Part shown: piece after piece, positions 2,150 through 35,918 of the stretch
How the letters are laid out: every line of letters starts with the position of its first letter
Numbering within the stretch: position 1 is the first letter of the stretch
Assembly: GCF_936916975.1 (NCBI RefSeq)
Contig: NZ_CAKZGO010000023.1
Location: 1-64,000 of the forward strand
Reading direction: 5' to 3'
DNA: 64,000 nt
Origin: an uncultured Dongia sp.
GTDB lineage: Bacteria > Pseudomonadota > Alphaproteobacteria > Dongiales > Dongiaceae
Notes under the pieces: model-generated
What the model saw: only the letters and a program-made list of their open reading frames with translations
What the model was told of the DNA's origin: nothing
The model's database searches: none
Position numbers and translations under genes: made by a program

Positions 2150-2814
2150 CCGACCAAAGTCCGGCCTATGGCCTTTGGGGCCTCGTGATCCTTAACTCGG
2201 TGATCTTTATCTTCTTCGCGTTCAGCTTCTTCAAGCCCCGTACGACGCGGGATTGGCGGTCCTTCGGGGCATTCAGCGCCTTCATGGTGGCTCTTTTCGC
2301 GGAGATGTATGGATTCCCACTGACAATCTACGTTCTGTCAGGATGGCTTCAGACCAAATTTCCCGGCGTCGACTGGTTTACCCATGACGCCGGGCATCTC
2401 TTGGAGATGATGTTTGGGTGGAAAGGGAATCCTCACTTTGGGCCATTCCATCTGCTGAGCTTCCTGCTGATCGGGGGCGGGTTCTTCCTGATCGCCAAAG
2501 CTTGGCATGTCCTCTTTCATGCCCAGAAGAAGGGAGTTCTGGCTCGTTCAGGACCATATGATTACGTCAGGCATCCGCAATATGTGGGTTTTGTCCTCGT
2601 TCTTCTTGGATTCCTCGTCCAGTGGCCAACGCTCCTGACGCTCGCGATGTTCCCTGTTCTTTTGCTGATGTATGCGCGCCTCGCGAAACAGGAGGAGCAA
2701 GAAGTAAGAAGGCAATTTGGGGAGGAATACGATCGCTACGCCGTGAATGTTCCTGCGTTCATCCCGAAATGGTCAAAACTCGTTCACGGACTGAGCGGAG
2801 CCAGCACCCAATGA
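2146..2814 (+). CDS. Isoprenylcysteine carboxyl methyltransferase-like integral membrane protein
   Basis: 222 residues with about five or six membrane segments. The C-terminal half has the signature of the ICMT/phospholipid methyltransferase superfamily: [14 protein letters not shown] (about residues 138-151) and a later acidic [16 protein letters not shown] motif, which together form the SAM-binding region. Bacterial homologues with this context sit between DUF2933 and a metal ATPase; their substrate is not known. It overlaps both neighbours by 4 bases (ATGA), so it belongs to one copper operon from 1823 to 5458. The fold assignment is firm, the methyl acceptor unknown. Confidence 0.82.
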
Positions 2815-5237
2815 AAAAAGCAACAATTGACGTTGGTGCGATGCTGGGAGCACTCGACCATCTGGCCATTCAGAAGCGCGTCCGCGCCATGCATGGCGTG
2901 CTGGATGTTGAGATGAACGCTGGGTCGTCGACCGCAACCGTCTCCTATGATGAAGCTCTTCTCAGTGTGCAATTGCTCAAAGAACAAGTTGAGGCGTGTG
3001 GCTTCCATTGTCGCGGTGAGAGCGTCCCGACGCATTTGTGCAAAGTTGATAAGACGCCCTCATCGCAGACGAGGAACCCGCCGCGCGACTACTCATATCC
3101 TGAGCACGCCCACCATCATGGACCTGCTCAGGATCATAAGAAGGCTGCATCCGGCTCCCTCAAGCATGCTGCAGCCCATGACATGATGGCTCATGAGATG
3201 GGCCATGGTGCGGGCATGGACATGGACGGCATGGTCAAGGACATGCGGAACAGGTTCCTGGTAAGCCTTGTATTCAGCATTCCACTCTTCGCCATGTCAC
3301 CTATGGGTATGGGTGAGCCGTGGTTGACGCCCCCAGCGGGTGTCGACCCAGAAATCATGATGTTCGTGTTCGCCAGTGCCGCGATCTTATACCCGGTATG
3401 GCCCTTCCTGGTCGCTGCATGGAGGGCTTTGTTGAATGGCGTCCTAAACATGGCAACGCTTGTCGTTCTCAGTGTTGGCACTGGCTATCTCTTCAGCATA
3501 GGCGCCACCTTCTTCTTTGAGGCGCAGCAGTTCTATGAGGCATCGGCCGTCCTTCTCGTCTTCATTCTGCTCGGGCACTGGCTTGAGATGCGGGCTCGGG
3601 CAGGAGCGTCGGCCGCGATTAAAGCACTCCTCAATCTGGCTCCGCCCAAAGCTGTTGTCCTCCGAGAAGGCAAGGAGGTTGAGATACCCACGGCTGACGT
3701 GCAGGCCGGAGATGTGGTTATTCTCCGGCCAGGCAACAAAATTCCCGTCGACGGTGAGGTAACCGAGGGCGAATCCGCCGTCGACGAGTCGATGTTGACG
3801 GGCGAATCGATGCCGATCACCAAGCGGATCGGAGACGCGGTGATTGGCGCAACGATCAACAAGAGCGGGACACTGCGCTACCGGGCGACGAAAGTCGGCT
3901 TGGATACCGCCCTGGCCCAGATCGTGAAGTTGGTCCAGGAGGCACAAAACTCGAAAGCGCCCGCGCAGCTCCTCGCGGATCGAGCGTCCCAGGTGCTGGT
4001 CCTCGCCGCCATTCTGATTGGCGTAGCGACCTTCATAGCTTGGTACTGGTGGCTAGGTCAGCCGCTCCTCTTTGCATTGACCCTGACCATCACCGTTTTT
4101 GTGATCGCTTGTCCAGATGCACTCGGATTGGCGACACCCATGGCAGTGATGGTTGGAACGGGTCTCGGCGCGACTCACGGAATCCTGTTCAAGAACGCCG
4201 CCGCTTTGGAAGAAGCGACAAAATTGAATGTGATTGTGTTCGACAAGACAGGCACCCTGACCATGGGGCAGCCGAAGGTAGTGGAAGTTGTTGCAGCCGA
4301 CGGACAGGCCGAAGAAGAGGTTCTCCGGGTCGCGGCGGCCGTGGAAGGTGGCTCAGACCACCCCCTGGCTCTTGCCATCGTGGAGCGGGCCAAAGGGCTG
4401 GAAGTGCCCGCTATCTCGGGATTCCTGAACATTGAAGGCAAAGGCGCTCAGGCCGAGGTTCTCGGAAGCCGCGTTTACCTTGGCAATCGCCGCCTGATGA
4501 CGGAGCAGAGCATCGACTTCCTGGGCCTTGAGAACAAGGCGGAAGAACTCAAGGGCGCAGGTCGCACTGTCGTACACGTCGCAAGGGCGGGAAAGCTCCT
4601 TGGCCTTGTGGCGATTGCAGATGCGCCCCGGCCGACAGCAAAGAGGACGATCGCGCGCCTCCGGGAGCGCGGTGTGCGTGTAGCCATGCTGACTGGCGAC
4701 AATGCTGGAACAGCCAAACGGATAGGCGACGATCTTGGGATCGATATCGTCCTATCGGACGTACTACCCGGACAGAAGGCCGACAAGATCAAGGAACTTC
4801 AATCCCAAGGGCTGAAGGTCGGCATGGTTGGTGACGGGGTGAACGACGCCCCAGCATTGACCCAGGCCGATGTGGGATTTGCGATCGGTGCGGGTACAGA
4901 CGTGGCGATTGAGAGCGCCGACATCGTGCTCATGAAGAGTGATCCTCACGACGTGCTGGGCGCTCTTGAGCTCTCGCGGGCGACGCTTCGGAAGATGCAT
5001 CAGAATTTGTGGTGGGCGGCCAGTTACAACGTAATCGCCTTTCCACTCGCAGCGGGGGTCTTCTACCCATTCCTACTGAGCCCCGAAATCGCGGCACTGG
5101 CGATGTCGGGTAGTTCCGCACTTGTGGCGGTCAACGCTCTTCTTCTCAAGAGAACTCGCCTCGACGAAGCCTCGACATCATCGCCAACATCTTCTGGCGA
5201 TCAAACAAACCTAGCAGTGAGGAGTACGGCACTATGA
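2811..5237 (+). CDS. Heavy-metal translocating P1B-type ATPase with a CPD motif
   Basis: Starting at the ATG at 2811, which overlaps the previous stop, gives 808 residues; upstream in-frame codons lie inside the methyltransferase gene. Residues 1-65 resemble an HMA domain but lack CxxC. A His/Met-rich linker follows ([19 protein letters not shown]). Core P-type elements are all present: TGES ([10 protein letters not shown]), the intramembrane metal motif [12 protein letters not shown] (C434-P-D436), the phosphorylation site DKTGT (D478), the HP motif (GGSDHPLA) and [11 protein letters not shown] replaces the CPC or CPH of well-known copper pumps, so the metal is uncertain; location points to copper efflux. 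The pump should be active because its catalytic residues are intact. Confidence 0.92.
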
Positions 5238-11587: not shown

Positions 11588-12034
11588 GTGAGGCGTAGAA
11601 CATTTCTTGCAACATCGGCTTTGGGCGCTTTGGCGTCACCGTTCTTAGCATTGAGAGCGTCCGCGTCTGAGGGGAGTCTGACGCTCATCAAGGACCCCAA
11701 CTGCGGCTGCTGCGAGGGCCACGCCAGCTATCTGGAGGAAAATGGCTTCAGCGTTCAGATCCAGGAATCGGCCGATTTGAATTCCGTGCGGAAGCAGTAT
11801 GGCGTGCCTGAAGCGCTGGCAGGATGCCACACGATCCTGGCTGGAGCGTATGTTATAGAGGGTCATGTGCCAGTGGCTGCGATCAAGAAGCTTCTTGTCG
11901 AACGCCCCGCTATACGAGGTATTTCGTTGCCCGGAATGCCTGCTGGATCTCCCGGCATGGGCGGTGAAAAGGAAGGTCCTCTAGTTGTTATGGTCATTCA
12001 AGATGGGATGCCAAAGGTCTTCTGGACCGAATAG
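11588..12034 (+). CDS. DUF411 family metal-binding protein, exported by Tat
   Basis: GTG start with AAAGAGG about 9 bases upstream; 148 residues. A twin-arginine signal (RRRTFLATSALGAL) ends near residue 27. The mature domain has the DUF411 motif KDPNCGCCEGHASYL followed by GCHTILAGAYVIEGHVP, a Cys/His set thought to bind copper. Residues 115-130 form a short Gly/Met linker (PGMPAGSPGMGG). DUF411 proteins recur in copper and silver resistance clusters. A periplasmic copper-binding role is likely; chaperone or reductase activity is unknown. Confidence 0.88.
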   Translation: MRRRTFLATSALGALASPFLALRASASEGSLTLIKDPNCGCCEGHASYLEENGFSVQIQESADLNSVRKQYGVPEALAGCHTILAGAYVIEGHVPVAAIKKLLVERPAIRGISLPGMPAGSPGMGGEKEGPLVVMVIQDGMPKVFWTE

Positions 12035-12037
12035 CCA

Positions 12038-12736
12038 CTACCTCATCAACCACCAGCCATCTTCGTTGATGGCATAAACGGGTCGGTAATGCCGAATGGT
12101 GCTGGCCAACACAACCGTCTTGATCTGATTGTCGAGAAGGAGAGCGTCACTACCCTGGTAGACGATCAAGACAGCATGCCCGAGGTTCAGGTTGAGGTCT
12201 TGGAGCGCGATGATGCGCATGTCCTCTACAGGGACGCCGAGCTCCTTCAGTGCCATGTATTTCGAGATCGCGTAATCCTCGCAATCGCCGCTCTTCTTCA
12301 AGAATTCGAACGGTATCTCCCAGTAGTCCTCCTTCCCCCAATTGTTGATGTCGAGGATATAGCGGCTTGAGTTGAGCGCCTTATGGACTGCCTTAATCTG
12401 GGACAGTCGGTCCTGGCCCTTCAAGCTGGCGATCAGCTCGGGCCACCCCTTCGTCGTACAGGTGGACGTATTGCATTTGACAGTGCCACCTTTCCAGCGC
12501 CCAAGCATGCCCGTCCACTTGGGAAACTTCTTGATGTTTTTGGAAGGCAGCTCGACCTTCGTGCCAAAGACCTTCGGATAGACCTTCGCTGACGCAGAGG
12601 GAACGCCGCCGACTAGAAGCGATGAGACCACAAGTACGCATGCGCTCAACAGAATGACATAGCGTCCGAACACAAAGGGCGCACGCCGAAACGCGGAGGG
12701 ATCTGACTGAATCAGAAACGGCATGGTCGTGGCCAC
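12038..12736 (-). CDS. Bacterial transglutaminase-like cysteine peptidase (BTLCP family)
   Basis: 232 residues from a GTG at 12736; an ATG at 12724 would give 228. One hydrophobic N-terminal segment (about 25-47, ending PSASAK) acts as signal or anchor. The catalytic triad elements are visible: GDCEDYAISK (Cys), NLNLGHAVLIV (His) and LLDNQ (Asp). BTLCP proteins are periplasmic peptidases, best known as LapG, which cleaves a surface adhesin; others have unknown targets. No LapD partner is near. It is convergent with the DUF411 gene (3-base gap), and a CueR-type promoter at 12797-12827 reads into it, suggesting copper control. Confidence 0.88.
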   Translation of the reverse strand: MATTMPFLIQSDPSAFRRAPFVFGRYVILLSACVLVVSSLLVGGVPSASAKVYPKVFGTKVELPSKNIKKFPKWTGMLGRWKGGTVKCNTSTCTTKGWPELIASLKGQDRLSQIKAVHKALNSSRYILDINNWGKEDYWEIPFEFLKKSGDCEDYAISKYMALKELGVPVEDMRIIALQDLNLNLGHAVLIVYQGSDALLLDNQIKTVVLASTIRHYRPVYAINEDGWWLMR

Positions 12737-12796
12737 CAGTGGTCAGAGTACTTTCCGAGCACCAATCAGGCGGGCGCATCGGCAGCTTGCCCAGCT

Positions 12797-12827
12797 ATCC
12801 TAAACCTTACCATGTTGGAAGGTGCAA
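12797..12827 (-). promoter_or_regulatory. CueR/MerR-type promoter for the BTLCP gene
   Basis: On the minus strand, TTGCAC (12827-12822) and TAGGAT (12802-12797) are separated by a 19-base spacer, the extended spacing of MerR-family promoters. The spacer holds an imperfect palindrome with arms CTTCC and GGTAAGG, very like the CueR site of copA promoters (ACCTTCC...GGAAGGT). The start codon is about 60 bases downstream. No cueR gene lies in this window. Confidence 0.6.
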
Positions 12828-12966
12828 GACTGTCAGCGCTGAGCGCTGAGATAACTGAATGAGGACATTAACCTTGCCGCTCAACGCCGTCGGCTGCTGC
12901 CAAATCTTTCGATTTGATAAAGATGTCGCAACGCACCAGATATTTTTCTGTAACAGCTACTTGTAC

Positions 12967-12995
12967 TTGACCCAGATTACGTTATTTCGCATAAC
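12967..12995 (+). promoter_or_regulatory. Candidate sigma-70 promoter with palindrome GTTAT-N5-ATAAC
   Basis: TTGACC (12967-12972), a 17-base spacer and CATAAC (12990-12995) form a plausible promoter 34 bases before the small secreted protein at 13029. The -10 overlaps the palindrome GTTATTTCGCATAAC (12981-12995), so a regulator bound there would block or modulate initiation. Confidence 0.45.
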
Positions 12996-13028
12996 GGCGA
13001 TATTGCCACTGCAAGATAAGACAGTCCT

Positions 13029-13424
13029 TTGACGCTGACCCGGCTGACACGCCTCATTGTTGCGACATTGTTCCTGACGACTGCCACATTTGGCGCCGTC
13101 ACCAATGCGCATGCAATTTGCGATGAAAGCTCCAGCTATCAGCAGCAACCTGGTCATAACCATCAGCATCCCGACGGCAACGCCGATCTCGACACGCCGA
13201 TGGATATGTCCGAGAAGGACGACAAGCTATCGTTGGCAGACGGCGTGTTGGGCAATGTCGCGACGGTCTGCCATAGCGGGTCCGTCGGTTGCCCAGGGTG
13301 CGTGACACCCTCTGACCAAGCTCTGCATGCTCCGACTGCATCGACCCTGGCATTTCGCCACGCATCGGAATCAGGCGAATCTGCCGACCCAAGCAGCAAT
13401 CTGCGCCCTCCAAAGTTCTCCTAA
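13029..13424 (+). CDS. Small secreted His/Cys-containing protein of unknown function
   Basis: 131 residues from a TTG; no better start is available in frame. A signal peptide spans residues 1-28 (FGAVTNAHAICD). The mature part has a His-rich stretch (QQQPGHNHQHPDG) and a Cys group (VCHSGSVGCPGCV). The layout recalls DUF2946/CopL-like copper-island proteins, but I cannot assign it. The gene lies just downstream of a candidate promoter (12967-12995) and may be the first gene of the run 13029-16890. Confidence 0.6.
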   Translation: MTLTRLTRLIVATLFLTTATFGAVTNAHAICDESSSYQQQPGHNHQHPDGNADLDTPMDMSEKDDKLSLADGVLGNVATVCHSGSVGCPGCVTPSDQALHAPTASTLAFRHASESGESADPSSNLRPPKFS

Positions 13425-13568
13425 GGCCCGCCGATTTTGACCTGACCTGAGAATTTCTCGGGCCGGGAGGACTCCGTCCAGCATCAAAATATCGGCATTG
13501 CCGGGAATACCATGTTCGACAGGTTCGAACGGGAAGTTCCCTCGCGCTTTCATGCTTGGAGAATACCA

Positions 13569-13877
13569 ATGAAGTTCGTCCTTCCAGCGATAGCTGGGGC
13601 CGCGATGACGCTCGTCGCACTCGTAGCCGCCCATGCTGAACAAGATGGCCCTCAGTTAAACCATCCCGCCGACACGTCACAGGCCTACCAAGGTGCTGAC
13701 GACATCAATCCATTCGACTTTGCCGTACCTCTGCTGACCAGAGAGGCGCCTGTGCCGTCCTACGGCCAGCGCCCGGCCGACCCAAGCACATCGACGACCG
13801 AACCGATGCCTATGGACGAGAGCATGCCGGGCATGGATCACAGCAACATGCCGGGGATGTCCGGCAGCGACAATTGA
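13569..13877 (+). CDS. Small exported Met-rich protein of unknown function
   Basis: Start at ATG 13569 with TTGGAG 7 bases before it; 102 residues. A signal peptide covers residues 1-23 (ending VAAHAEQ). The mature chain is Pro-rich and ends in a Met/His cluster (PMPMDESMPGMDHSNMPGM), a copper(I)-ligand composition similar to PcoE/CopM-type small proteins. No domain is recognised. It is 13 bases upstream of the TolC-like lipoprotein and so part of the same transcript; a periplasmic copper-binding role is inferred. Confidence 0.72.
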   Translation: MKFVLPAIAGAAMTLVALVAAHAEQDGPQLNHPADTSQAYQGADDINPFDFAVPLLTREAPVPSYGQRPADPSTSTTEPMPMDESMPGMDHSNMPGMSGSDN

Positions 13878-13890
13878 TCGGGTAGATAAG

Positions 13891-15060
13891 ATGAAAACCA
13901 TCAATGCATCACGAAGCGGACGGATTCCGCGCCCAGGTTTACTTAAGGCCGCCTTGCTCGCGAGCGTTGCGATCATCGCCGCTGGCTGCTCTGCCACCAA
14001 CCTAGAGAACTTTCCCAATACGGAACGGGTGATAGAGCGGGCCGACTACCTGGATCGCAAGCCGATCCCCAGCCTTACAGACTACCAAGAAGCCGCCCAA
14101 GTCCGGGTCAAGGAGTTGCTGTCTCAACCGCTGACCGTCTCGGCCGCCATGGAAATTGCCATGCTAAACACGCCGAAACTCCAACAGCATTATCAAGCCT
14201 ACCAGATCTGGGATGAAGACCTGGTCGAGGAGCTGTCCGTGGCCGGGCGGAAAGAAACCGACCCGACGACAACGTCCATGGACTGGACCGCCGCCAAAAT
14301 CGCCCTCATGAAGTCGGTGAACACGGTCTACCGCTACAACTTCCCACGTGAGTATTTCGAAGTTGCCGAAGAATTCATCGATGTCGGCGAGGAAGTCCGC
14401 AAGACTTACTTCGAGGCCATCGCAGCACACCAGCTCCAAGCTATGCTGGAGACCACGGTGACAGCAACGCAGGCCGCAGCAGAGCTGGCCAATGCGCAGT
14501 ATCAAGCTGGGACCGCCAGCCTTCGATCCCAGGCCATGCAGCAAATGACGCACGCTGAAACCGTCAAGGCATTGGCGGAAGCGAAGCTCGAAGCGATCTC
14601 CACACGGGAAGCACTGAACCGTCTCCTCGTTCTGTGGGGCGACGACGCAAACTGGACGGCGCCGGAACGACTGCCGGATCTTCCTGCGGCGCGGCCCAGC
14701 TACGCCAACCTGGAAGAGTATGCCCTAGAGCGGCGCTTCGATGCGCTGAGCGAGAGAAAGTCATGGGCGCTCTGGCATACGTCGGTCGACGTTCGATCCG
14801 AGGTGCGAGAGAACTACGCCACTCTTCTCACGCGGTACGACCTCGCCAAATACCAGCAAGAGACCGTCCTGCCACTTTCTGAGGCCGTGCTGGGGGAAAC
14901 CCAGAAGGAATACAACGGCATGCTCATGGGCATCTACGATCTGATCGACGACACCCAAGGACAGATTGAGGCAGGCCGCGAATACGTCGAGGCCCTCAGG
15001 GACTTCTGGATTGCACAAGCCGAACTGTCTCAGGCAGTCGGCGGTAAGTTGCCCGAATAA
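13891..15060 (+). CDS. TolC-family outer-membrane lipoprotein
   Basis: 389 residues. A lipoprotein signal ends in the lipobox IIAAGC (near residue 33). The remainder is largely helical with two related halves, typical of TolC/OEP outer-membrane factors (for example ELANAQYQAGTASLRSQAMQ and a second copy near YNGMLMGIYDLIDD). It is shorter than classical TolC (about 450-490), as are the versions that accompany copper oxidases. No RND or membrane-fusion genes are adjacent, so its partner is unclear. It is 11 bases upstream of the multicopper oxidase, consistent with a CopB-like position in a periplasmic copper operon. Confidence 0.82.
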   Translation: MKTINASRSGRIPRPGLLKAALLASVAIIAAGCSATNLENFPNTERVIERADYLDRKPIPSLTDYQEAAQVRVKELLSQPLTVSAAMEIAMLNTPKLQQHYQAYQIWDEDLVEELSVAGRKETDPTTTSMDWTAAKIALMKSVNTVYRYNFPREYFEVAEEFIDVGEEVRKTYFEAIAAHQLQAMLETTVTATQAAAELANAQYQAGTASLRSQAMQQMTHAETVKALAEAKLEAISTREALNRLLVLWGDDANWTAPERLPDLPAARPSYANLEEYALERRFDALSERKSWALWHTSVDVRSEVRENYATLLTRYDLAKYQQETVLPLSEAVLGETQKEYNGMLMGIYDLIDDTQGQIEAGREYVEALRDFWIAQAELSQAVGGKLPE

Positions 15061-15071
15061 GGAGCTGACAC

Positions 15072-16361
15072 ATGAACCGCAGAGAATTCTTCACCGCTTC
15101 GGGTATCGGACTTGCTGCAACGGCGGGTTTGATTTCGAAGGCAGTCGCCCAACCCGCCGAACCCGAGTTCTTCAATGATCCCAATACCAGGCAGCCGCTC
15201 GCGTCAGATGGACGATCTTACACTCCCGTTGTGACCCTGAATGGTGGGTCTTTGCCCTGGCGCATGAATGACGGGGTGAAAGAGTTCCATCTCGTTGCCG
15301 AACCTGTTCAGCGTGAGTTCGCGCCAGGCATGCTCGTCAACTGTTGGGGCTACAACGGTTCTTCGCCTGGCCCAACGATCGAGGCTGTCGAAGGTGACCG
15401 CATTCGTATCTTCGTTACCAACAAACTGCCCGAGCACACGACGGTTCACTGGCATGGCCTGTTCCTGCCGAGCGGAATGGACGGTGTCGGTGGCCTATCC
15501 CAGCCGCACATCCCAAAAGGTAAGACCTTCGTCTACGAGTACACACTTCGTCAGAGCGGCACGTTCATGTACCACCCGCATTCGGACGAAATGGTGCAGA
15601 TGGCCATGGGAATGATGGGCATGTTCATCGTTCATCCTCGTGACGGTTCACATCGCGTGGATCGAGATTTCTGCTTCCTGTTGTCGAGCTGGGACATAGA
15701 TCCGGGCACCTTTACGCCGAACACCGCTGAGATGACGGATTTCAATATGTGGACCTTCAATAGCCGAGTATTTCCCGGGATCGATCCATTGGTCGTGCGG
15801 AAGGGCGATCGTGTTCGTATTCGTATCGGCAACCTATCCATGACCAACCACCCCATCCATCTTCACGGGTACTCGTTCAAGGTTGCCGGAACGGACGGTG
15901 GGTGGGTGCCAGCGTCGGCTCAATGGCCAGAAGTGACGACCGACGTTCCAGTCGGTGCCATGCGCGCCATTGAGTTTGTCGCCGACGTGGAAGGTGACTG
16001 GGCCTTCCACTGTCACAAGTCCCATCACACGATGGGTCCGATGGGGCACGAAGTGCCCAACATGATTGGCGTCGATCAGAAGAAGGCAACGCCCAAAGTT
16101 GCCAAACTTCTGCCCGACTACATGTACATGCCGATGGGCGAGAACGGCATGGCGGAAATGCAGGACATGGCCGCTATGGGTATGACCCTGCCAGAGAACA
16201 CGCTCCCCATGATGACAGGCGAAGGACCGTTTGGTCCCATCGAGATGGGCGGCATGTTCACGGTCCTAAAAGTCCGTAAAGACATCGCACCTGGAGACTA
16301 TGCCGACCCAGGTTGGTACGAACATCCTGAAGGCACCGTTGCTTACGAACTGAAATCTTAA
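15072..16361 (+). CDS. Multicopper oxidase, Tat-exported
   Basis: 429 residues with a twin-arginine signal (NRREFFTASGIGL) ending near residue 26. All four copper-ligand clusters are present: HWHGLFLP, MYHPHSDE, NHPIHLHG and FHCHKSHHTMGPMGHE, giving type 1, 2 and 3 copper sites. A Met-rich stretch lies near the C-terminus (YMYMPMGENGMAEMQDMAAM), as in copper-oxidising CueO/CopA-type enzymes. Probable role: oxidation of Cu(I) to the less toxic Cu(II) in the periplasm. AGGAGCTG precedes the ATG. It belongs with the TolC-like and cupredoxin genes. Confidence 0.93.
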   Translation: MNRREFFTASGIGLAATAGLISKAVAQPAEPEFFNDPNTRQPLASDGRSYTPVVTLNGGSLPWRMNDGVKEFHLVAEPVQREFAPGMLVNCWGYNGSSPGPTIEAVEGDRIRIFVTNKLPEHTTVHWHGLFLPSGMDGVGGLSQPHIPKGKTFVYEYTLRQSGTFMYHPHSDEMVQMAMGMMGMFIVHPRDGSHRVDRDFCFLLSSWDIDPGTFTPNTAEMTDFNMWTFNSRVFPGIDPLVVRKGDRVRIRIGNLSMTNHPIHLHGYSFKVAGTDGGWVPASAQWPEVTTDVPVGAMRAIEFVADVEGDWAFHCHKSHHTMGPMGHEVPNMIGVDQKKATPKVAKLLPDYMYMPMGENGMAEMQDMAAMGMTLPENTLPMMTGEGPFGPIEMGGMFTVLKVRKDIAPGDYADPGWYEHPEGTVAYELKS

Positions 16362-16404
16362 CGGCGTACTTTCTACAACCCACTGAGATGAAAAAGGACA
16401 GTCT

Positions 16405-16890
16405 ATGAAAAACCTCGTTGCAACCTTCGCCATCGCCACTTCCATGATGGCAATCTCCACCTTTGCCTTCGCAACTGGCACACACGATGGCGGTCATCAC
16501 ACCTTTGGTGAGCCTGGCAAGGCAGATCAAGTTACTCAAACTATCGACGTTGAGTTGGTAGACGAAAATGGCGATATGAAAATTCTGCACGCCCCGCTCA
16601 AGATCAAGAAGGGCGACGTAGTCAAGTTCGTCATCACCAACAAAGGTGCCATCGATCATGAATTTTCCATCGGCGATTCGCCCAGTCAGCGCGCTCATGC
16701 GTTGATGATGGAAAAAATGCCGGACATGAAGCATGAGAACGACGCAACTGCCGTCACTCTGGCACCCGGCGAAACCAAGGAACTAATCTGGGCCTTCACG
16801 AAGACCGTCAGCAGCAATATCGAACTGGCTTGCCAGATGCCCGGTCACTATCAGGCAGGCATGGTCAGCAAAGTGAAGATGGTGAAGTAA
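16405..16890 (+). CDS. Cupredoxin (plastocyanin/azurin-like) periplasmic protein
   Basis: 161 residues, signal peptide 1-22 (TFAFATGTHD). The cupredoxin core has the first His ligand in AIDHEFSIG and the C-terminal set ACQMPGHYQAGM, giving His, Cys, His and Met as for a type 1 copper site. A His-rich start of the mature protein (HDGGHHTFGE) may add metal affinity. It likely carries electrons or copper for the multicopper oxidase 43 bases upstream. A GC-rich hairpin follows the stop at 16915. Confidence 0.92.
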   Translation: MKNLVATFAIATSMMAISTFAFATGTHDGGHHTFGEPGKADQVTQTIDVELVDENGDMKILHAPLKIKKGDVVKFVITNKGAIDHEFSIGDSPSQRAHALMMEKMPDMKHENDATAVTLAPGETKELIWAFTKTVSSNIELACQMPGHYQAGMVSKVKMVK

Positions 16891-19149: not shown

Positions 19150-19476
19150 ATGCGCAACAAATTTCTTAATGTGCTCGCCATCGCGGCAATTGCCGGGACT
19201 GCTTCAATGGCGTTTGCCGAAGAAACCGATGCAGCCAAGGCCTATATGGCCGCCATGCATAACTCCATGAATATGAACATGGAAATGTCTGGTGATCCAG
19301 ATGTCGACTTCGTTCAGATGATGATCCCTCACCACGAAGGGGCTGTCGAAATGGCCAAGGTCGCTCTGCAATACGGCAAGGACCCAGAAGTTAAGAAAAT
19401 GGCGGAAGGTGTCATTGCTGCCCAGCAGGAGGAAATTACCTGGATGAAGCAATGGCTCGACCTTCACAAAAAGTAG
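19150..19476 (+). CDS. DUF305 family exported protein
   Basis: 108 residues, signal peptide 1-22 (ASMAFAEE). The single-domain DUF305 motif is plain: DVDFVQMMIPHHEGAVEMAK, then VIAAQQEEITWMKQWL. The Met/His helix bundle (MHNSMNMNMEM plus PHH) is a proposed copper or silver ligand set. DUF305 proteins are common in copper islands as periplasmic metal-binding proteins. ACAAGGAGAA precedes the ATG at good spacing. Confidence 0.9.
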   Translation: MRNKFLNVLAIAAIAGTASMAFAEETDAAKAYMAAMHNSMNMNMEMSGDPDVDFVQMMIPHHEGAVEMAKVALQYGKDPEVKKMAEGVIAAQQEEITWMKQWLDLHKK

Positions 19477-19496: not shown

Positions 19497-19518
19497 AACC
19501 TTCCTGCCTGGGAAGGTT
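19497..19518. promoter_or_regulatory. Perfect AACCTTCC-N6-GGAAGGTT inverted repeat
   Basis: An 8-bp perfect inverted repeat with a 6-base centre, 21 bases after the DUF305 stop. Its arms equal the CueR half-site, so it could be a copper regulator site for copA (start 19662); it could also serve as a terminator for the DUF305 gene, though there is no long T run. The -35/-10 flanks are poor. Confidence 0.4.
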
Positions 19519-19547: not shown

Positions 19548-19579
19548 TTGAACCTCCCCAGGGGGGTCAGTGATAGACT
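19548..19579 (+). promoter_or_regulatory. Candidate MerR/CueR-type promoter of copA
   Basis: TTGAAC (19548-19553) and TAGACT (19574-19579) are 20 bases apart, the long spacing of MerR-activated promoters. The spacer carries the near-palindrome ACCTCCCC/AGGGGGGT. The copA ATG is 82 bases downstream. No regulator gene is adjacent. Confidence 0.45.
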
Positions 19580-19661: not shown

Positions 19662-22052
19662 ATGAAACACGTTCATACCCATTCAGGCGGGCACTCCCCG
19701 ACAAGTACCTCAAGCGTGATGGCAACAGACCCTGTCTGTGGGATGTCGGTAGATTCGTCCAAGACTGTTCACAAGCACGACTATGACGGCCAGCAGTACT
19801 TCTTCTGCAGCGCTTCCTGCAGATCAAAGTTTGTGTCTGATCCGCACCAGTACATGCACAAGGAACAAGCTGCGAAGATCGAAGCGCCGTCGACAGGCCG
19901 TGCCGACGGCGTGGTGTACACCTGTCCAATGCATCCACAAATTCGCCAATCTGGTCCGGGATCATGCCCGATTTGCGGGATGGCGCTGGAACCGCTGACA
20001 CCATCGGCCCGAGATGAGCCGAATGTCGAGCTGATCGACATGACCCGTCGCTTTTGGGTCGGCCTGGCCATTACCGTGCCGCTGTTTGCTCTGGAGATGG
20101 GTGGCCATTTTCCTATTCTTAATCTGCACGGAATGATTCCTTCTTCAATTCTGAACTGGCTCCAGCTTGCTTTGGCATCTCCGGTGGTCCTCTGGGCAGG
20201 CTGGCCGTTCTTCGTGCGGGCCTGGGCATCGGTCAAAAACCGCAGCCTCAACATGTTTTCCCTGATCGCACTGGGCACGGGCGCCGCCTACCTCTTCAGC
20301 GTCGTAGCCACCGTGGCTCCTCAGATATTTCCGGCCGGATTTCGCGGCATGGATGGGTCGGTTGCCGTCTATTTTGAGGCAGCCGCCGTGATCACCGTTC
20401 TGGTACTTCTCGGGCAGGTGCTGGAACTGAGAGCACGTGAGCATACAGGTGGTGCGATCAAGGCACTCCTCGATCTCGCTCCCAAAACTGCGCGCCGCAT
20501 TCGGGACGATGGCACGGACGAAGAGATACCTGTCGAGAATGTCTTAATTGGCGACCGAATTCGTATCCGACCAGGAGAGGCCATTTCGGTCGATGCGAAG
20601 GTGGTCGAGGGCCGCAGTTCCGTAGATGAGTCGATGGTAACTGGAGAGTCTCTTCCAGTCGAGAAATCAGCAGGCATGTCAGTTATCGGCGGTACGCTGA
20701 ATGGCACAGGCGCCCTCATTGTGCGAGCTGAGAAGGTGGGTGCAGACAGCATGCTGGCCCAGATCGTCAGTATGGTGGCAGATGCTCAGCGCAGCCGCGC
20801 GCCAATTCAACGATTGGCTGACGCTGTTTCCGGATGGTTTGTTCCTGCTGTCATCCTGATCGCCATCGTAGCTTTTGCCGCATGGGCATTCTCGGGTGTC
20901 GAGCAACCGCTGGCGCATGGCCTGGTCGCCGCGGTCTCCGTACTTATCATCGCCTGCCCCTGTGCGCTCGGCCTAGCGACCCCCATGTCTATCATGGTCG
21001 GCATTGGCAAGGGCGCCATGGCTGGCGTGCTTATTAAGGACGCAGCCGCGCTGGAAAGGATGGAGAGCGTCGATACCCTCGTCGTCGACAAGACGGGTAC
21101 CTTGACGGAAGGGAAACCGAAGGTAGTTGCGGTCCTTGGGTCTGCCGATCTGCCAGAGGATGAAATCTTGTCATTTGGCGCCAGCCTGGAGAAATCAAGC
21201 GAGCATCCACTGGCCGCGGCGATTGTGGCTGCCGCCCTGGAAAGAAAGCTGGCGCTGTCAGAGGTGGCGGATTTCGAGTCCGTCACTGGGAAAGGTGTTG
21301 CGGGAGTTGTGAACGGGCGGCACGTGGCGCTCGGTAATCTGAAGATGATGGAGAGCGTCGGAGCCACTGTGGGAGATTTGGAGCGGCGAGCAGACGATCT
21401 GCGGAAGGATGGAGCCACCGCGTTATTCATTGCCGTTGATGGCAGAGCAGTTGGCGCCATTGCGGTGGCAGACCCGATCAAAGCAACAACACCCGATGCT
21501 CTTCGTGCTTTGCGAGATAGCGGTCTTCGAATTGTGATGCTGACAGGGGACAACAAGACCACTGCTCTGGCGGTCGCTGCAAAGCTGGGCATTGACGAGG
21601 TCGAAGCCGAAGTTCTGCCTCAGCACAAGAATCAGATCGTCAAGAAGATGCGTGCCGAGGGCCATGTTGTTGCCATGGCCGGAGATGGCGTCAACGACGC
21701 ACCCGCGTTGGCTGAGGCCGATATCGGCGTTGCCATGGGGACCGGGACGGACATTGCCATCCGCAGTGCCGGGGTAACCCTGGTGAAAGGTGATTTATCC
21801 GGCATTGTCAGGGCGCGCGAGCTGAGCCGGGCAACTATGCGCAATATCCGGCAAAACCTGTTCCTGGCTTTCGTCTATAACGCGCTCGGAGTGCCAATAG
21901 CGGCTGGACTCCTCTATCCGGCCTTTGGTGTCCTGCTGTCGCCCATTATCGCCGCGGCCGCTATGGCCCTAAGTTCAGTATCGGTCGTTGGAAATGCACT
22001 GCGGCTGCGGTTGGCGCCAATATCGGGAGTGGTCCGTCAGTCCCCTCGTTAG
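19662..22052 (+). CDS. copA: Copper(I)-exporting P1B-type ATPase
   Basis: 796 residues. In place of HMA domains the N-terminus has a YHS domain ([23 protein letters not shown]) and a second Cys domain with [21 protein letters not shown]. Eight membrane segments follow with TGES, the copper motif [12 protein letters not shown] (C432-P-C434), DKTGT (D476), SEHPLA and GDGVNDAP. This is a typical CopA-like Cu+ efflux pump of the YHS-bearing group. GGAG lies 8 bases upstream of the ATG. Two candidate copper-regulator sites lie in the 185-base leader. It is the second metal ATPase in the island and, unlike the CPD pump at 2811, has the standard copper site. Confidence 0.95.
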
Positions 22053-29034: not shown

Positions 29035-29904
29035 ATGGATATGAAGAGACGGAAACTGCTCGGGGGCGTCGCGGGACTGGCTGCTTCGCAAGCGCTGCCG
29101 TTTGTGGGCCGCGCTTCGGCTCAAACCTCCTTTAGCTTTGGCCTGACCCCGGTCTTCCTGGATTCTGACATCGAACTGCTCAATGAACTCCAGGGCTACC
29201 TATCTCAAGCCATGAAGCGATCTGTCTCGCTCGTAAAGCGTCGAACGTACCAGGAGATTACCGCACTCCTTTTGTCGGGAGAATTGGATGCCGCGTGGAT
29301 TTGTGGCTTTCCGTTTGTGCAGCATGCGGACAAGCTGGCCTTGGTCGCAGTCCCTCTCTATCGGGGGAAACCGCTCTATCAGTCCTACATCATCGTCCCA
29401 TCGGCTCGGCAGATCACTGAATGGGACCAGTTGCAGGGTGACATCCACGCCTTTTCTGATCCAGACAGCAACTCGGGTTATCTGGTGACAGCGGCTCTGT
29501 TGGCGGAACATGATCTGACCCCGGCCAAGTTCTTCGCCAAGACCTTTTTCACGTATGGACATCGGAATGTGATCCGGGCCGTGGCATCCGGTCTGGCTCA
29601 AAGTGGCAGTGTCGACGGGTACGTCTGGGACGTGATGAACGCACGTGAACCAGCTCTCGTATCCCAGACCAAAGTCCTGCGTCGTTCAGAATTGTTGGGT
29701 TTCCCACCCATCGCGTGCTTGCGCGGCAATCTGGATACCGAAGAAATCGGGCAACTGGCAGACGCGCTTGTCTCAATTTCCAAGAACGAGCAAGGACGCA
29801 AGGTTCTCGCAATGCTGCAGCTTGATGGCTTCGCAGTCGAGCCAGAATCGACCTTCGCTGGGATCGCCGCCAAATACTCGCTCATTCAACTCAAAGGCGG
29901 ATAA
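29035..29904 (+). CDS. aioX: AioX periplasmic arsenite-binding protein
   Basis: 289 residues; AAAGGA sits 8 bases before the ATG. A twin-arginine-like signal (KRRKLLGGVAGLAA) ends near residue 31 (GRASAQ). The rest is a PhnD/type 2 periplasmic binding fold (FGLTPVFLDSD, LLLSGELDAAWICGFPFVQ, DPDSNSGYLV). The Cys in WICGFP and the Cys in FPPIACLRG could be arsenite ligands; the first is known to matter in studied AioX proteins. It binds arsenite and signals to AioS, encoded 7 bases downstream. Confidence 0.9.
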   Translation: MDMKRRKLLGGVAGLAASQALPFVGRASAQTSFSFGLTPVFLDSDIELLNELQGYLSQAMKRSVSLVKRRTYQEITALLLSGELDAAWICGFPFVQHADKLALVAVPLYRGKPLYQSYIIVPSARQITEWDQLQGDIHAFSDPDSNSGYLVTAALLAEHDLTPAKFFAKTFFTYGHRNVIRAVASGLAQSGSVDGYVWDVMNAREPALVSQTKVLRRSELLGFPPIACLRGNLDTEEIGQLADALVSISKNEQGRKVLAMLQLDGFAVEPESTFAGIAAKYSLIQLKGG

Positions 29905-29911
29905 GCAGAAG

Positions 29912-31396
29912 ATGAACCGCCTCCACCGCATGTACCGAGCCATGCCGTTGGCACTCAAAGTGCCAATGCTGGTTGCGGTTCTGACGGTGGTGGTTGCCAC
30001 GGTCATCTCTCAAGTGGTGCTATCCCGTCTCGCCCAAGAGCAGGAAGCATCCCTGCGTAGTCTGGCAACGGCTTTCATGGATGGTGTTTCTACTGCAGTG
30101 ACGCCAGGACTTCTGCGCCAGGATGTCTGGGAGACCTTCGATAGTCTGGACCGCGCCCGCCGCCAGTATGGCGCCGTCAAAGCTCTTTACGTCGTCGTCC
30201 TGCAGCCGAACGGCCAGGTTCTGGCTGCGTCCGAACCCGAGCAATTCCCAGTCACATCCAATCTCCCTGAAGACTTGGCCAATCTCGTCACTGATGGCCA
30301 GGGGTTGACGTTGGATGAAGGGAAGGGACGAGCCTGGACGGTTCGACAGATCGATCAAGAGACGTTTCGGATCGGAACCGTGTTCGCCGAACTCGACATC
30401 AGTGAAATTCTGGCTGTCCGGAACGAGGTTCTTTGGACTCTCATCCTCGTGAATGCCGGGCTGACCGCGATTTTCAGTTTCGCTGGGTATGGGCTCGTCC
30501 GTCGGATGGTCGCACCACTCTCCGTCATCCAGCAGCACCTGATCGCCGCAGGTTCTGGTCGCCCTGAACTCATTTCGGATCACGAGTTGCGCCGGGCGGC
30601 ACCGGAGTATGGGGAGTTGTATCAGCGCTTCAACGCCATGATCCGCGGCCAAGCCGAGCGTGAAGCCCTGGCGGCAGAGCTGGCAAATCAGGAGAAGTTG
30701 GCGATGCTGGGGCGTCTGGCCTCTGGCATGGCCCACGAGGTCAACAATCCCCTCGGGGGCCTCATGAATGCCGTGGACACGCTCGATATCCATGGAGACA
30801 AGGAAAGTGTTCGCCGTCGGACGGTCGATCTCCTACGGCGAGGCCTGGCCGGAATTCAGAATGTCGTGCGCGCCGCCCTGGTAACCTACAAGGCGGCACC
30901 CGGTCCCAAGCGGCTTACCAGAGACGATCTGGAAGACCTACCTTTCCTGATCCAGCACGAAACAGGCGCTAAACAGCTCGTTCTCGACTGGCAGAACGAG
31001 TTATCTCAGGATATTGAAGTCGATGCCTCCGCCGTACGGCAGATCGCCCTCAACATTCTCCTCAACGCCTGTGCCGCGTCTCCAGAGCATGGCACCATCC
31101 TGTTTCGGGCGACTGTTAAGGACTCGGTCTTAAGTATCTCGGTCACTGACGATGGGCCCGGATTGCCCGAGACTGCCCGTGCTGCGGCTGCGGCTGGTGC
31201 GGCAGGCGCCGGAGCCCCCGTCGGCAGGGGCCTCGGTCTCTGGACGGCCTCAAGGCTTGCTGTCAGACTAAACGGAAAAATGACCCTGCAATCAGGCCCC
31301 AGCCAGGGTGCGACCATCGTGTTGGTCGCACCGCTAGGTGAAGAGCGGGAGGAAACGAATGTTATCGCCGCAGCGCGCGCGGATCGGACTGGTTGA
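29912..31396 (+). CDS. aioS: AioS sensor histidine kinase
   Basis: 494 residues. Two membrane segments (about 12-34 and 170-192) flank a periplasmic sensor of about 135 residues; a HAMP-like region leads to the phosphorylation site MAHEVNNPLGG (H275). ATP-binding motifs follow: NILLNACAAS, VTDDGPGLPE and GRGLGLWTASRL. An Ala-rich insertion interrupts the G1-G2 loop (ARAAAAAGAAGAGAPV). It responds to AioX-arsenite and phosphorylates AioR, whose gene overlaps by 38 bases. Confidence 0.92.
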   Translation: MNRLHRMYRAMPLALKVPMLVAVLTVVVATVISQVVLSRLAQEQEASLRSLATAFMDGVSTAVTPGLLRQDVWETFDSLDRARRQYGAVKALYVVVLQPNGQVLAASEPEQFPVTSNLPEDLANLVTDGQGLTLDEGKGRAWTVRQIDQETFRIGTVFAELDISEILAVRNEVLWTLILVNAGLTAIFSFAGYGLVRRMVAPLSVIQQHLIAAGSGRPELISDHELRRAAPEYGELYQRFNAMIRGQAEREALAAELANQEKLAMLGRLASGMAHEVNNPLGGLMNAVDTLDIHGDKESVRRRTVDLLRRGLAGIQNVVRAALVTYKAAPGPKRLTRDDLEDLPFLIQHETGAKQLVLDWQNELSQDIEVDASAVRQIALNILLNACAASPEHGTILFRATVKDSVLSISVTDDGPGLPETARAAAAAGAAGAGAPVGRGLGLWTASRLAVRLNGKMTLQSGPSQGATIVLVAPLGEEREETNVIAAARADRTG

Positions 31397-32675
31397 GGAC
31401 GATCCGATCATGGGCGAGTCCATCGCCCATCGGCTTGACCTTGAAGGCTATCATGTCGCCTGGTGGAAATCTGGCCAGGACGCCTTGGATGCAATCAAGG
31501 GCGATTCACCGGATCTGCTTGTCTGTGATATCCGCCTGCCGGACATGAATGGCGAGTCTTTGTTCAACAAGCTCGTCCCCAACAAGCCCGGTCTCCCGAT
31601 CCTGTTCATCACTGGCTTTGCCCAGGTCGATCAAGCCGTGCGCCTCATGCGGGCTGGTGCCGCCGATTACGTCGCCAAACCCTTCGCCATGCCGGACTTC
31701 CTGGCCAAGATCACCGCACTCCTCAATCGACCGGGCAGTACCACTCATGTCCTGGGTTTCTCTCCGGCGATCGCCCGTGTAGAGGATATGCTCCGGCGTA
31801 TCGCCAATATCGACTCCACTGTCTTGATGACGGGTGAAAGTGGCTCCGGTAAAGAAGTGGCCGCCCGTTTCCTTCATGCGGAATCGAACAGGCGTGACCG
31901 CCCATTTATGGCTGTAAACTGTGCAGCCATTCCGGCCGACCTTCTAGAAAGCGAGCTTTTTGGCCACGAACGTGGCGCTTTCACAGGCGCCACGGCACGG
32001 CACATGGGTTATGTCGAGCGCGCCAAAGACGGCTTTCTGTTTCTCGATGAGATCGGCGAGCTGCCCTTGGGTCTTCAAGCGAAACTGCTTCGCCTGATTG
32101 AAAGCCGCAAGTTCCAGCGGCTCGGCGGTGAGACCGAATTGACGTGTGGTGCCCGGATTGTTTGCGCCACCAACATCGATCTGACGGCGGCTGCTCAGCA
32201 GGGCAAGTTCCGGTCGGATCTGCTTTTTCGCATCCGAGTCATCGAAGTAAGAGTTCCGCCGCTGCGTGAGCGCCGTGACGATGTCGCCCCCTTGCTGGAG
32301 CTGTTCCGGAAACAATTTGCGGCATCCTTTGGTCATCATGTAACGGGCTTCCAGCCTGACGTTATTGAGGCAGCCCTTCTTCACAATTGGCCGGGCAATG
32401 TGCGCGAACTCCGGAACCGCGTTGAGCGCGCCGTTGCCTTGTCTGATGGTCCATGGATCAGCCAGGAAGCCCTGTTCCCGGACCTGATACCCGAAAGTCT
32501 CGGTTCCGGCTCCTTCACTTCGCTGGCCGTTATGCGAGAGCAAGTCGAACGGCAGCATATCCGGTCCGCGCTCGATCGCTCCGAAGGTCGAGTGGAGGAT
32601 GCAGCCAAGCTGCTGGGTGTCTCGCGATCCACCTTGTTCGATAAGATGCGCCGCCTGCGGCTGGAACACACATAG
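31359..32675 (+). CDS. aioR: AioR sigma-54-dependent response regulator
   Basis: 438 residues from ATG 31359 (GGGAGG 6-7 bases upstream). Receiver domain 1-115 with phosphoacceptor region LLVCDIRLPD; AAA+ domain about 135-365 with GESGSGKE (Walker A), the sigma-54 contact loop GAFTGA and FLFLDEIGELPL (Walker B); a Fis-type helix-turn-helix at the C-terminus (VEDAAKLLGVSRSTLFDKM). It activates the aioBA promoter, which here has a good -24/-12 element. Confidence 0.94.
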   Translation: MLSPQRARIGLVEDDPIMGESIAHRLDLEGYHVAWWKSGQDALDAIKGDSPDLLVCDIRLPDMNGESLFNKLVPNKPGLPILFITGFAQVDQAVRLMRAGAADYVAKPFAMPDFLAKITALLNRPGSTTHVLGFSPAIARVEDMLRRIANIDSTVLMTGESGSGKEVAARFLHAESNRRDRPFMAVNCAAIPADLLESELFGHERGAFTGATARHMGYVERAKDGFLFLDEIGELPLGLQAKLLRLIESRKFQRLGGETELTCGARIVCATNIDLTAAAQQGKFRSDLLFRIRVIEVRVPPLRERRDDVAPLLELFRKQFAASFGHHVTGFQPDVIEAALLHNWPGNVRELRNRVERAVALSDGPWISQEALFPDLIPESLGSGSFTSLAVMREQVERQHIRSALDRSEGRVEDAAKLLGVSRSTLFDKMRRLRLEHT

Positions 32676-32785
32676 GAGTCCGAAAGACCGGGCGGCAATC
32701 TGCGGCACAGTCCAGGAATCTGGACTCTACTGCTTTGCAGCAGAAGAAAGCCCAATAAACAGATACCGAATTCCGCGCCGCAACG

Positions 32786-32800
32786 TGGCATAGCTCCTGC
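32786..32800 (+). promoter_or_regulatory. Sigma-54 (-24/-12) promoter of aioBA
   Basis: TGGCAT (32786-32791) and TGC (32798-32800) place GG and GC 12 bases apart, matching the TGGCAC-N5-TTGC consensus at all key positions except one T. It is 44 bases upstream of aioB and downstream of a sigma-54 activator gene (aioR). A small dyad CTGCT/AGCAG at 32729-32742 upstream might be part of an activator site. Confidence 0.85.
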
Positions 32801-32843
32801 TCTACCAGGGTCAATAAAAATACCAACCCTGGGGAGATCTCAA

Positions 32844-33368
32844 ATGGCAAAACGGTGTGAAAAGCTCGTCGACATTGGTCGGCGGCAGTTTTTGCGCGGG
32901 AGCGGCATGGCCGCCGCCGCTGGCGTCGTCAGTGTCGTCGCATCGGCGCCCGCGAAGGCGAACTCGCCGCTGGCACGCGTGGACTATCCAAGCAATCGCC
33001 TGGGCAATATCAAAGACCTCAAGGCGAATGAACCCCTCGATGTCAGCTATCCTGACGAGAATGCGCCGGGTGTCCTGCTGAAGATGGGCAAGCCCGTGCC
33101 GGGCGGCGCAGGTCCGGACGGCGATATCGTCGGCTTCACCACAATCTGCCCGCATAAGGGCTTCCCGCTGTCCTATAGCGCGTCGGACAGCACCTTCAAC
33201 TGTCCCGGCCACTACTCTCGCTTCGATGCCGAGGCTGGTGGTCTGCAGGTCTGGGGCCAAGCCACACAAAATCTCCCGCAATACACGCTCCGCGTGGACG
33301 ACAAGGGCGACATCTATGCCGAAGGCGTGGATGAGCTGCTCTACGGTCGCCTCAGCAACGTGCTTTAA
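32844..33368 (+). CDS. aioB: Arsenite oxidase small (Rieske) subunit
   Basis: 174 residues. A twin-arginine signal (IGRRQFLRGSGMAAAAG) ends near residue 42. The Rieske [2Fe-2S] ligands are present as CPHKGF and CPGHYSRFD (near residues 103 and 121). It pairs with AioA in the periplasm and exports the fully folded complex through its Tat signal, since AioA has none. GGGGAGA lies about 8 bases before the ATG. Confidence 0.95.
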   Translation: MAKRCEKLVDIGRRQFLRGSGMAAAAGVVSVVASAPAKANSPLARVDYPSNRLGNIKDLKANEPLDVSYPDENAPGVLLKMGKPVPGGAGPDGDIVGFTTICPHKGFPLSYSASDSTFNCPGHYSRFDAEAGGLQVWGQATQNLPQYTLRVDDKGDIYAEGVDELLYGRLSNVL

Positions 33369-33380
33369 GGGAGAACGGAC

Positions 33381-35918
33381 ATGGCTTTCAAACGACAGAT
33401 CGACCGCCTGCCGATCATCCCGGCCGACGCCACGAAACACAACGTCACCTGCCACTATTGCATCGTTGGGTGCGGCTACCACGCCTACACGTGGCCGACC
33501 AATAAGCAGGGTGGCACCGACCCCAAATCCAATGCCTTTGGGGTGGACCTCTCGCAGCAGCAAGCTGCCGAAACAGACGCTTGGTATTCCCCGTCGATGT
33601 ACAACATCGTCAAGCAGGATGGCAAAGACGTTCATATCGTGATCAAGCCGGATCACGAATGCGAAGTGAATTCGGGCCTTGGCTCGGTTCGTGGCGCCCG
33701 CATGGGTGAATCCCGCTTCAGCGAAACCCGCAGCACCCAGCAACAGCGCCTGACTGATCCGATGGTGTGGCGCTACGGTTCCATGCAGCCGACCTCATGG
33801 GAAGACGCCTATGACCTGGTGGCACGCGTCACCGCCGCCGTCGTCAAAGAGCAAGGCGAAGATGGTCTCTTCGTCTCCATGTTCGATCACGGTGGATCGG
33901 CGGGCGGATACGAAAACACCTGGGGTACGGGAAAGCTCTACTTCGGTGCCATGAAGATCAAGAATGTCCGCATCCATAATCGTCCGGCATACAACTCAGA
34001 AGTCCATGCCACACGCGACATGGGCGTCGGCGAACTCAACAACTGCTACGAGGACGCAGAACTTGCCGATACGATCGTTGCCGTCGGCACGAACCCTTTG
34101 GAAACGCAGACCAACTATTTCCTCAACCACTGGATTCCGAATCTGCGGGGTACGTCCCTCGACAAGAAGAAGGCGCAGCTTCCTGACGAGTCACACGAGC
34201 AGGCGCGCATCGTCATCATCGATCCGCGCCGTACCGTAACGGTCAATGCCTGCGAAATGGAAGCAGGCAAGGACCGTGTCCTTCATCTGGCCCTTAATTC
34301 GGGCACAGATCTGATCCTGTTCAACGCCATCTTTACCCATATCGTTGAGCAGGGATGGACAGATAAGGAGTTTATCAAGAAGAGCACTGTCGCCGAAGGG
34401 ACAAAGCGGCCGGATCTCTATCCAGCGCGTGGTGAAGCCGACGGCAAGCCGGGGCATCTCACCAACTTCTCCGGCGCCGTCGAGGGTTGCAAAGTCTCTC
34501 TCGAAGAAGCTGCCAAAGTAACCGGACTAAAGGCCGAAGATATCGCCAAGGCTGCTGAATGGATTGGCAAACCAAAGGAAGGCGGAAAGCGTCGGCGCGT
34601 GATGATCGGTTATGAAAAGGGCTTGATCTGGGGAAATGACAATTACCGCACCAATGGCGCCCTGGTGAACATCGCACTGGCAACTGGGAATATCGGCCGT
34701 CCCGGTGGCGGCGTGGTGCGTCTCGGCGGCCACCAGGAAGGTTACGTGCGCCCAAGCGACGCACATGTTGGTAGACCCGCCGCCTATGTCGACAAACTGC
34801 TGATCGAGGGTAAGGGTGGCGTCCATCACGTCTGGGCGTGCGATCACTATAAGACCACGTTGAACGCCCACGAATTCAAGAGCGTTTACAAGAAACGCAC
34901 TGACATCGTGAAGGACGCCATGAGCAGCGTTCCATATGGCGATCGGGATGCTATGGTGCAGGCGATACTGGGAGCGATCAAGAAAGGCGGTTTGTTCTCG
35001 GTCGATGTCGACATCATCCCGTCCCAGATCGGCCAAGCCAGCCACGTATGGCTGCCTGCGGCAGAATCGGGCGAAATGAACCTGACCTCGATGAATGGCG
35101 AGCGTCGTATGCGCTTGACGGAGCGGTACATGGACCCGCCCGGCAATGCCAAGCCGGATTGCTTGATTGCGGCCGGGCTTGCTCAACACATGGAGCGGGT
35201 CCTGCGCGACATGGGCGATGCCAAATATGCCGACCAGTTCAAAGGGTTCGATTGGAAGACAGAGGAAGACGCCTTCCTCGATGGCTACCAGAAGAACGCC
35301 GGAGGCGGCGAGTTCGTGACCTATGACGCCTTGAGAGCCATGGGGACCAATGGTTTTCAAGAGCCCGCCACGGGGGTCAAGGATGGCAAAATCGTTGGTA
35401 CGAAGCGCCTCTACACCGAAGGAACATTCTCGACCGAAGACGGCAAGGCTCGGTTCATGGATGCGCCCTGGCGCGGCCTACAGGCTCCCGGCAAAGAGGA
35501 AGAAAAGGCGAAGTTCAAGTTCCTCATCAACAATGGTCGCTCCAATCTGGTCTGGCAGAATGCTTTCCTGGATCAGGCCAACGACTTCGTCATGGATGCG
35601 TCGCCTTATCCGTTCATTGAGATGAACCCGGACGATATGGCCACGCTCAAGCTGGGCGCTGGCGACCTTGTGGAGGTCTTCAACGACGCCGGATCGACCC
35701 AGGCGATGGTCTATCCCACGCCCACGGCCCGGAAAGGGGAGACTTTCATGCTGTTTGCCTTTCCAACGGGTGTCCAGGGCAACGTCGTCAATGACGGCGT
35801 GAATGAACTGGTCATCCCCAATTACAAGCAGAGCTGGGGTGATATCCGGAAGATCGCCACGGCGCCGGAAGTGACCAGATCCCTGAGCTTCAAATCACGT
35901 GAATACCGGGTCGACTAG
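33381..35918 (+). CDS. aioA: Arsenite oxidase large molybdopterin subunit
   Basis: 845 residues, the usual length. The N-terminal 3Fe-4S motif is [11 protein letters not shown], with a non-Cys fourth position as in known AioA. The bis-MGD-binding regions follow ([47 protein letters not shown]). It oxidises arsenite to arsenate and passes electrons through the Rieske subunit to a cytochrome c. It begins 12 bases after aioB with AAGGGAGA upstream. The ligand to molybdenum is not a Cys or Ser, as expected for this DMSO-reductase branch. Confidence 0.97.

Follow-up and report, generated by a model that had tools for sequence, protein, structure and literature searches.

The window, that is, the whole stretch of 64,000 nt from an uncultured Dongia sp. 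that was analysed, contains a dyad, ACCTTCC-N6-GTAAGGT, at 12804–12823 on the minus strand, facing the gene for a transglutaminase-like cysteine peptidase. On balance, we favour that this dyad is an inherited site of a copper operon and that the peptidase gene is a later, lineage-specific neighbour, possibly driven from it incidentally. The sequences, their conservation, their synteny and the gene families are established directly; protein binding at the dyad, copper as its signal, the evolutionary sequence and any influence on the peptidase gene are inferred.

A peptidase gene within a copper-resistance island

The ORF at 12038–12736 (minus strand) codes for 232 aa from a GTG codon, with an in-frame ATG at 12724–12722, and a profile search matched its product to PF06035 (Peptidase_C93/BTLCP) with 64.4 bits for a cut-off of 27, which bears out its first-pass annotation as a transglutaminase-like cysteine peptidase. 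The catalytic Cys, His and Asp columns are kept in the alignment to chains 4u65 and 4fgo, annotated in the search output as a putative cystine protease and a periplasmic protein, respectively, and which we take to be LapG proteins. The enzyme would be a periplasmic protease of the Cys-His-Asp type. Its description as LapG-like is correct at the level of the family, which it shares with the periplasmic protease LapG along with the aligned catalytic residues, but with the LapG equivalog model it reaches only 107.2 of the required 320 bits, and on this cut-off we do not identify it as LapG itself.

The further suggestion that copper could trigger the processing of an adhesin by this peptidase, as a step in leaving a biofilm, is unsupported. 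No LapA retention module (NF033682) was over the cut-off in the 17 genomes searched, with weak matches below it in 14 of them (three of these matches in the own genome), and LapD (PF16448) had no match in the own genome, nor did any control genome match it. The excerpts of the matches listed for LapG and copper describe no copper control of the protease, and the term transglutaminase-like cysteine peptidase is absent from the copper/CueR literature among the matches listed.

BTLCP matches occur in all 17 genomes of the family. The closest named relative of the window BTLCP is from a Dongia mobilis MAG; identity is 71 % over 183 residues both with this protein and with the copy on contig C20 of the own genome, and a tree groups the window copy loosely with these chromosomal BTLCPs of the Dongiaceae (fork 83/93, drawn open). 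It differs from them in being an extra, more divergent paralogue located within a copper island. A search of plasmids with the window BTLCP returned only distant relatives (138 records, all with <60 % identity), and the same search with the island gave 345 partial matches, mostly copper-oxidase, none of them covering 80 %.

The island itself had passed unmentioned in the first-pass annotation. A gene for a DUF411 protein (11588–12034, plus strand; PF04214, 79.7 bits, cut-off 27) and that for the peptidase meet tail to tail, their stop codons being 3 bp apart. On the other side of the dyad there is a copper operon (13029–16890, plus strand) coding for small secreted proteins (13029 and 13512), an OEP (13891), a multicopper oxidase (15072) and a CopI-like cupredoxin (16405), in the same gene order as in the related genomes G002 and G007. 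The likely core promoter of this operon is TTGACC-17-CATAAC (12967–12995, plus strand), whose TTGACC has similar surroundings in G002 and G007 and whose −10 CATAAC is our own reading. Further downstream are genes for a DUF305 protein (19150–19476, plus strand; PF03713, 73.8 bits, cut-off 27) and for a heavy-metal P-type ATPase with YHS and HMBD domains (19662–22052, plus strand; TIGR01511, 580 bits, cut-off 397). This ATPase, as well as another one at 2622–5237 (plus strand), is over the cut-off of the copper subfamily and also over that of the cadmium subfamily; the motif is CPC in the former and CPD (ACPDALG) in the latter. Upstream of the ATPase at 19662, the sequence TTGAACCTCCCCAGGGGGGTCAGTGATAGACT (19548–19579) is a G-tract pseudopalindrome situated between promoter-like hexamers, which we take to be reminiscent of CsoR operators. 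The window also contains arsenite oxidase genes (29035–35918, plus strand), with scores over cut-off for both the large subunit (1325 bits) and the small one (201.9 bits). Ahead of them come a gene for a PhnD-like binding protein, an ORF that by reading resembles a sensor kinase, and a gene for an NtrC-type regulator. The presence of the arsenite oxidase genes indicates that the island handles arsenic besides copper.

Distribution of the N6 dyad

The complete dyad is 20 bp long with one mismatch, and its CueR/MerR-like half-sites are separated by six central bases; this corrects the shorter CTTCC/GGTAAGG dyad described previously. With zero or one mismatch, the N6 dyad is found at five places in the 5.48-Mb own genome, two of them in this island (the four inspected include all but C4:166941). 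The second one in the island, ACCTTCCTGCCTGGGAAGGT (19498–19517, plus strand), lies 21 bp after the DUF305 stop codon, upstream of the P-type ATPase gene, and is the only perfect N6 copy in the own genome. At two mismatches the count is at background level, with 24 places in all for 21 in the control. The exact pattern ACCTTnC-N6-GGAAGGT occurs at nine places in the 17 family genomes, for two of the reversed pattern, and five of the nine lie by genes of copper loci, namely those at DUF411 in both G002 and G007, the one at DUF305 in G001, and the two of the window. The others are G007:C318, beside a gene whose small secreted product matches no Pfam family, and three places within long ORFs. Judging from these counts, the N6 dyad in its setting is beyond chance.

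In both G002 and G007 the island runs DUF411, dyad, h13029, h13512, OEP, MCO and CopI, with no peptidase gene, and the dyad occupies the same place between DUF411 and the operon as in the window; in these two genomes it lies 30–31 bp after the DUF411 stop codon. The three orthologous sites, which are all that this comparison comprises, have ACCTTnCCAnGnnGGAAGGT in common, and their flanks diverge. Because the relatives have the dyad without the peptidase, the dyad probably predates it. Among 35 DUF411 loci, partly overlapping, a BTLCP gene adjoins DUF411 in the own genome only, and in the stretches scanned the dyad was absent from all 24 other BTLCP loci. The link of the locus to copper is thus stronger than previously stated, because the gene lies within a copper island and the dyad is an element of copper loci in relatives.

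Several observations count against the dyad being an inherited operator of the copper operon. No promoter in the plus direction overlaps it, and its distance to the TTGACC of the operon varies (86 bp in G002, 72 bp in G007 and 143 bp in the window, where TTGACC starts at 12967). The DUF411 locus of G006 has no dyad within two mismatches, a profile search gave no MerR-family match on the contig of the window, and three of the sites come soon after stop codons. Among the 30 DUF411 loci scanned, the dyad was seen with zero or one mismatch only at the own locus and that of G002, and thus at none outside the Dongiaceae.

Relation to CueR-type promoters

On the minus strand, a −35-like TTGCAC (12822–12827) facing the peptidase gene and a −10-like TAGGAT (12797–12802), 19 bp apart, enclose the dyad, so the sequence previously described as a promoter with 19-bp spacing is present as described. 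The two hexamers score 7/12, and at least 7/12 was reached at 3,830 of 20,000 random positions of the window (ca. 19 %); alone, the hexamers of 12797–12827 are no better than chance. They are absent from the matching place in both G002 and G007, the −10-like element having no equivalent there, and on this comparison the hexamers flanking the minus side of the dyad are weak and specific to the window strain. These same two results make it possible, if rather tentative, that transcription of the peptidase gene begins at an unrelated start or a weak constitutive one, with no copper control, and that its promoter look-alike is coincidental. A scan of 12600–13100 for sigma-70 promoters, accepting 16–18 bp spacers only, found none, which argues against this reading, as does a dyad that is itself beyond chance.

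The absence of another sigma-70-like promoter in that stretch, with the limits on spacers just given, also favours that CueR binds the dyad and that copper turns on the peptidase gene from TTGCAC-19-TAGGAT, as do the 19-bp spacing, the half-sites, the surrounding island and a CueR-family regulator encoded in the own genome, the only one over cut-off (C13:29099; 170.9 bits, cut-off 147.4). The site has in common with CueR-activated copA and copZ promoters the half-sites of the ACCTTCC/GGAAGGT type, the spacing and the copper locus; it differs from them in having six central bases instead of seven, a mismatch in one half-site, one base more separating TTG from ACC, a −35 that is TTGCAC and not TTGACC, and a peptidase as the gene that it faces. 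In the own genome, both TTGACCTTCCCATGATTGGAAGGACCATATG, upstream of the copA gene that adjoins the CueR-family gene on C13, and TTGACCTTCCCATGATGGGAAGACCCATATT, which precedes a copZ-like gene on contig C5, have seven central bases, in a 21-bp N7 form with TTGACC directly at the dyad. N7 dyads were counted at 25 places in the own genome and 13 for the control; the surroundings were inspected at four of the 25, two of which are those of the copA and copZ-like genes. The CueR sites of P. aeruginosa that Table 1 of PMC12833586 gives are also N7.

The excerpt of PMC3431237 gives a distance of 19–20 bp between −35 and −10 around the dyad as the spacing rule for such promoters, which agrees with the window site, and also reports that a PbrR promoter with a spacer one base shorter had higher activity without metal, indicating that a single base of spacing matters in this class of regulators. 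Since the copA and copZ-like sites of the own genome are N7, a standard CueR promoter is rejected as the default identity of the N6 site. The CueR-type layout initially proposed thus stands for the 19-bp spacing, the half-sites and the copper setting, and fails for the centre, the mismatch and the hexamers. With these differences, the chance-level hexamers and the relatives that have the dyad without the peptidase, we consider it unlikely that CueR activates the peptidase gene from this site. Another MerR-family gene, at C42:125915 near a P-ATPase gene, was discarded as a candidate regulator, with no ACCTTCC dyad seen by eye in the 400 bases upstream.

Origin and possible role of the dyad

Three of the sites follow a stop codon, at distances of 21, 30 and 31 bp, which is also what would be expected if the dyad was not an operator, and acted instead as an RNA hairpin, a terminator or a stabiliser, that closes the transcripts of DUF411 and DUF305 at their 3′ ends. 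All the sites can fold, with −17.0, −13.9, −8.0 and −7.3 kcal/mol for stretches of 32 bases, and the motif at G007:C318 (L156:1485–1536) forms the core of a long hairpin that looks perfect (−43.1 kcal/mol) and lies between an arginine-deiminase-like ORF and the gene for the small secreted protein mentioned above. Against this, there is no T-run after the stems, the site is not among the hits of a terminator scan, and one position of the left arm varies (A, G, T, C) without compensation in the right arm, the rest of both arms being invariant. Furthermore, the motif of G001 is situated between two divergent genes, and TTGACC occupies the −35 place there. We therefore hold a role as a transcript hairpin to be doubtful.

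That copper islands of the Dongiaceae use a MerR-type copper regulator with an N6 operator, different from the N7 sites of the copA and copZ-like genes, and that one strain put a periplasmic BTLCP under its control, so that copper would signal proteolysis in the envelope, is quite improbable. Even counting this co-option by another regulator together with activation by CueR, copper-inducible transcription of the peptidase gene appears rather unlikely. The confidence given to these alternatives overlaps with that given to an inherited copper-operon site, because such a site is compatible with a peptidase gene that responds to copper as well as with one that does not.

Returning to the inherited site, the dyad would be a putative protein-binding site of the copper island and part of the intergenic region that separates DUF411 from the copper operon. 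The simplest history would be the later insertion of the BTLCP gene, in reverse orientation, between DUF411 and the existing dyad. We infer that a copper regulator may bind the N6 dyad in the island, with copper as the probable signal. The strain-specific TTGCAC and TAGGAT could then turn the palindrome into a MerR-like promoter, and the regulator reading the dyad might also affect the peptidase gene, simply because of where that gene lies.

Were the dyad an operator, it would represent a copper-locus site with altered spacing of its half-sites, and would clearly illustrate how a gene can come to lie next to a metal-responsive site that was already there. Should copper indeed induce the protease, this would connect metal stress with periplasmic proteolysis in a little-studied family. 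At present, the locus serves mainly as a caution that a sequence resembling a promoter ahead of a gene may be part of the operon next to it.

Elsewhere in the window there is a complete QatABCD anti-phage system (51889–56982, plus strand), with scores against the PADLOC models of 811.9 bits for QatA, 263.7 for QatB, 572.5 for QatC and 372.8 for QatD. A gene for a TIR-domain protein is located at 44538–45341 (minus strand), its best PADLOC match being PDC-S66 (228 bits), with 133.7 bits for a ThsB-like match.
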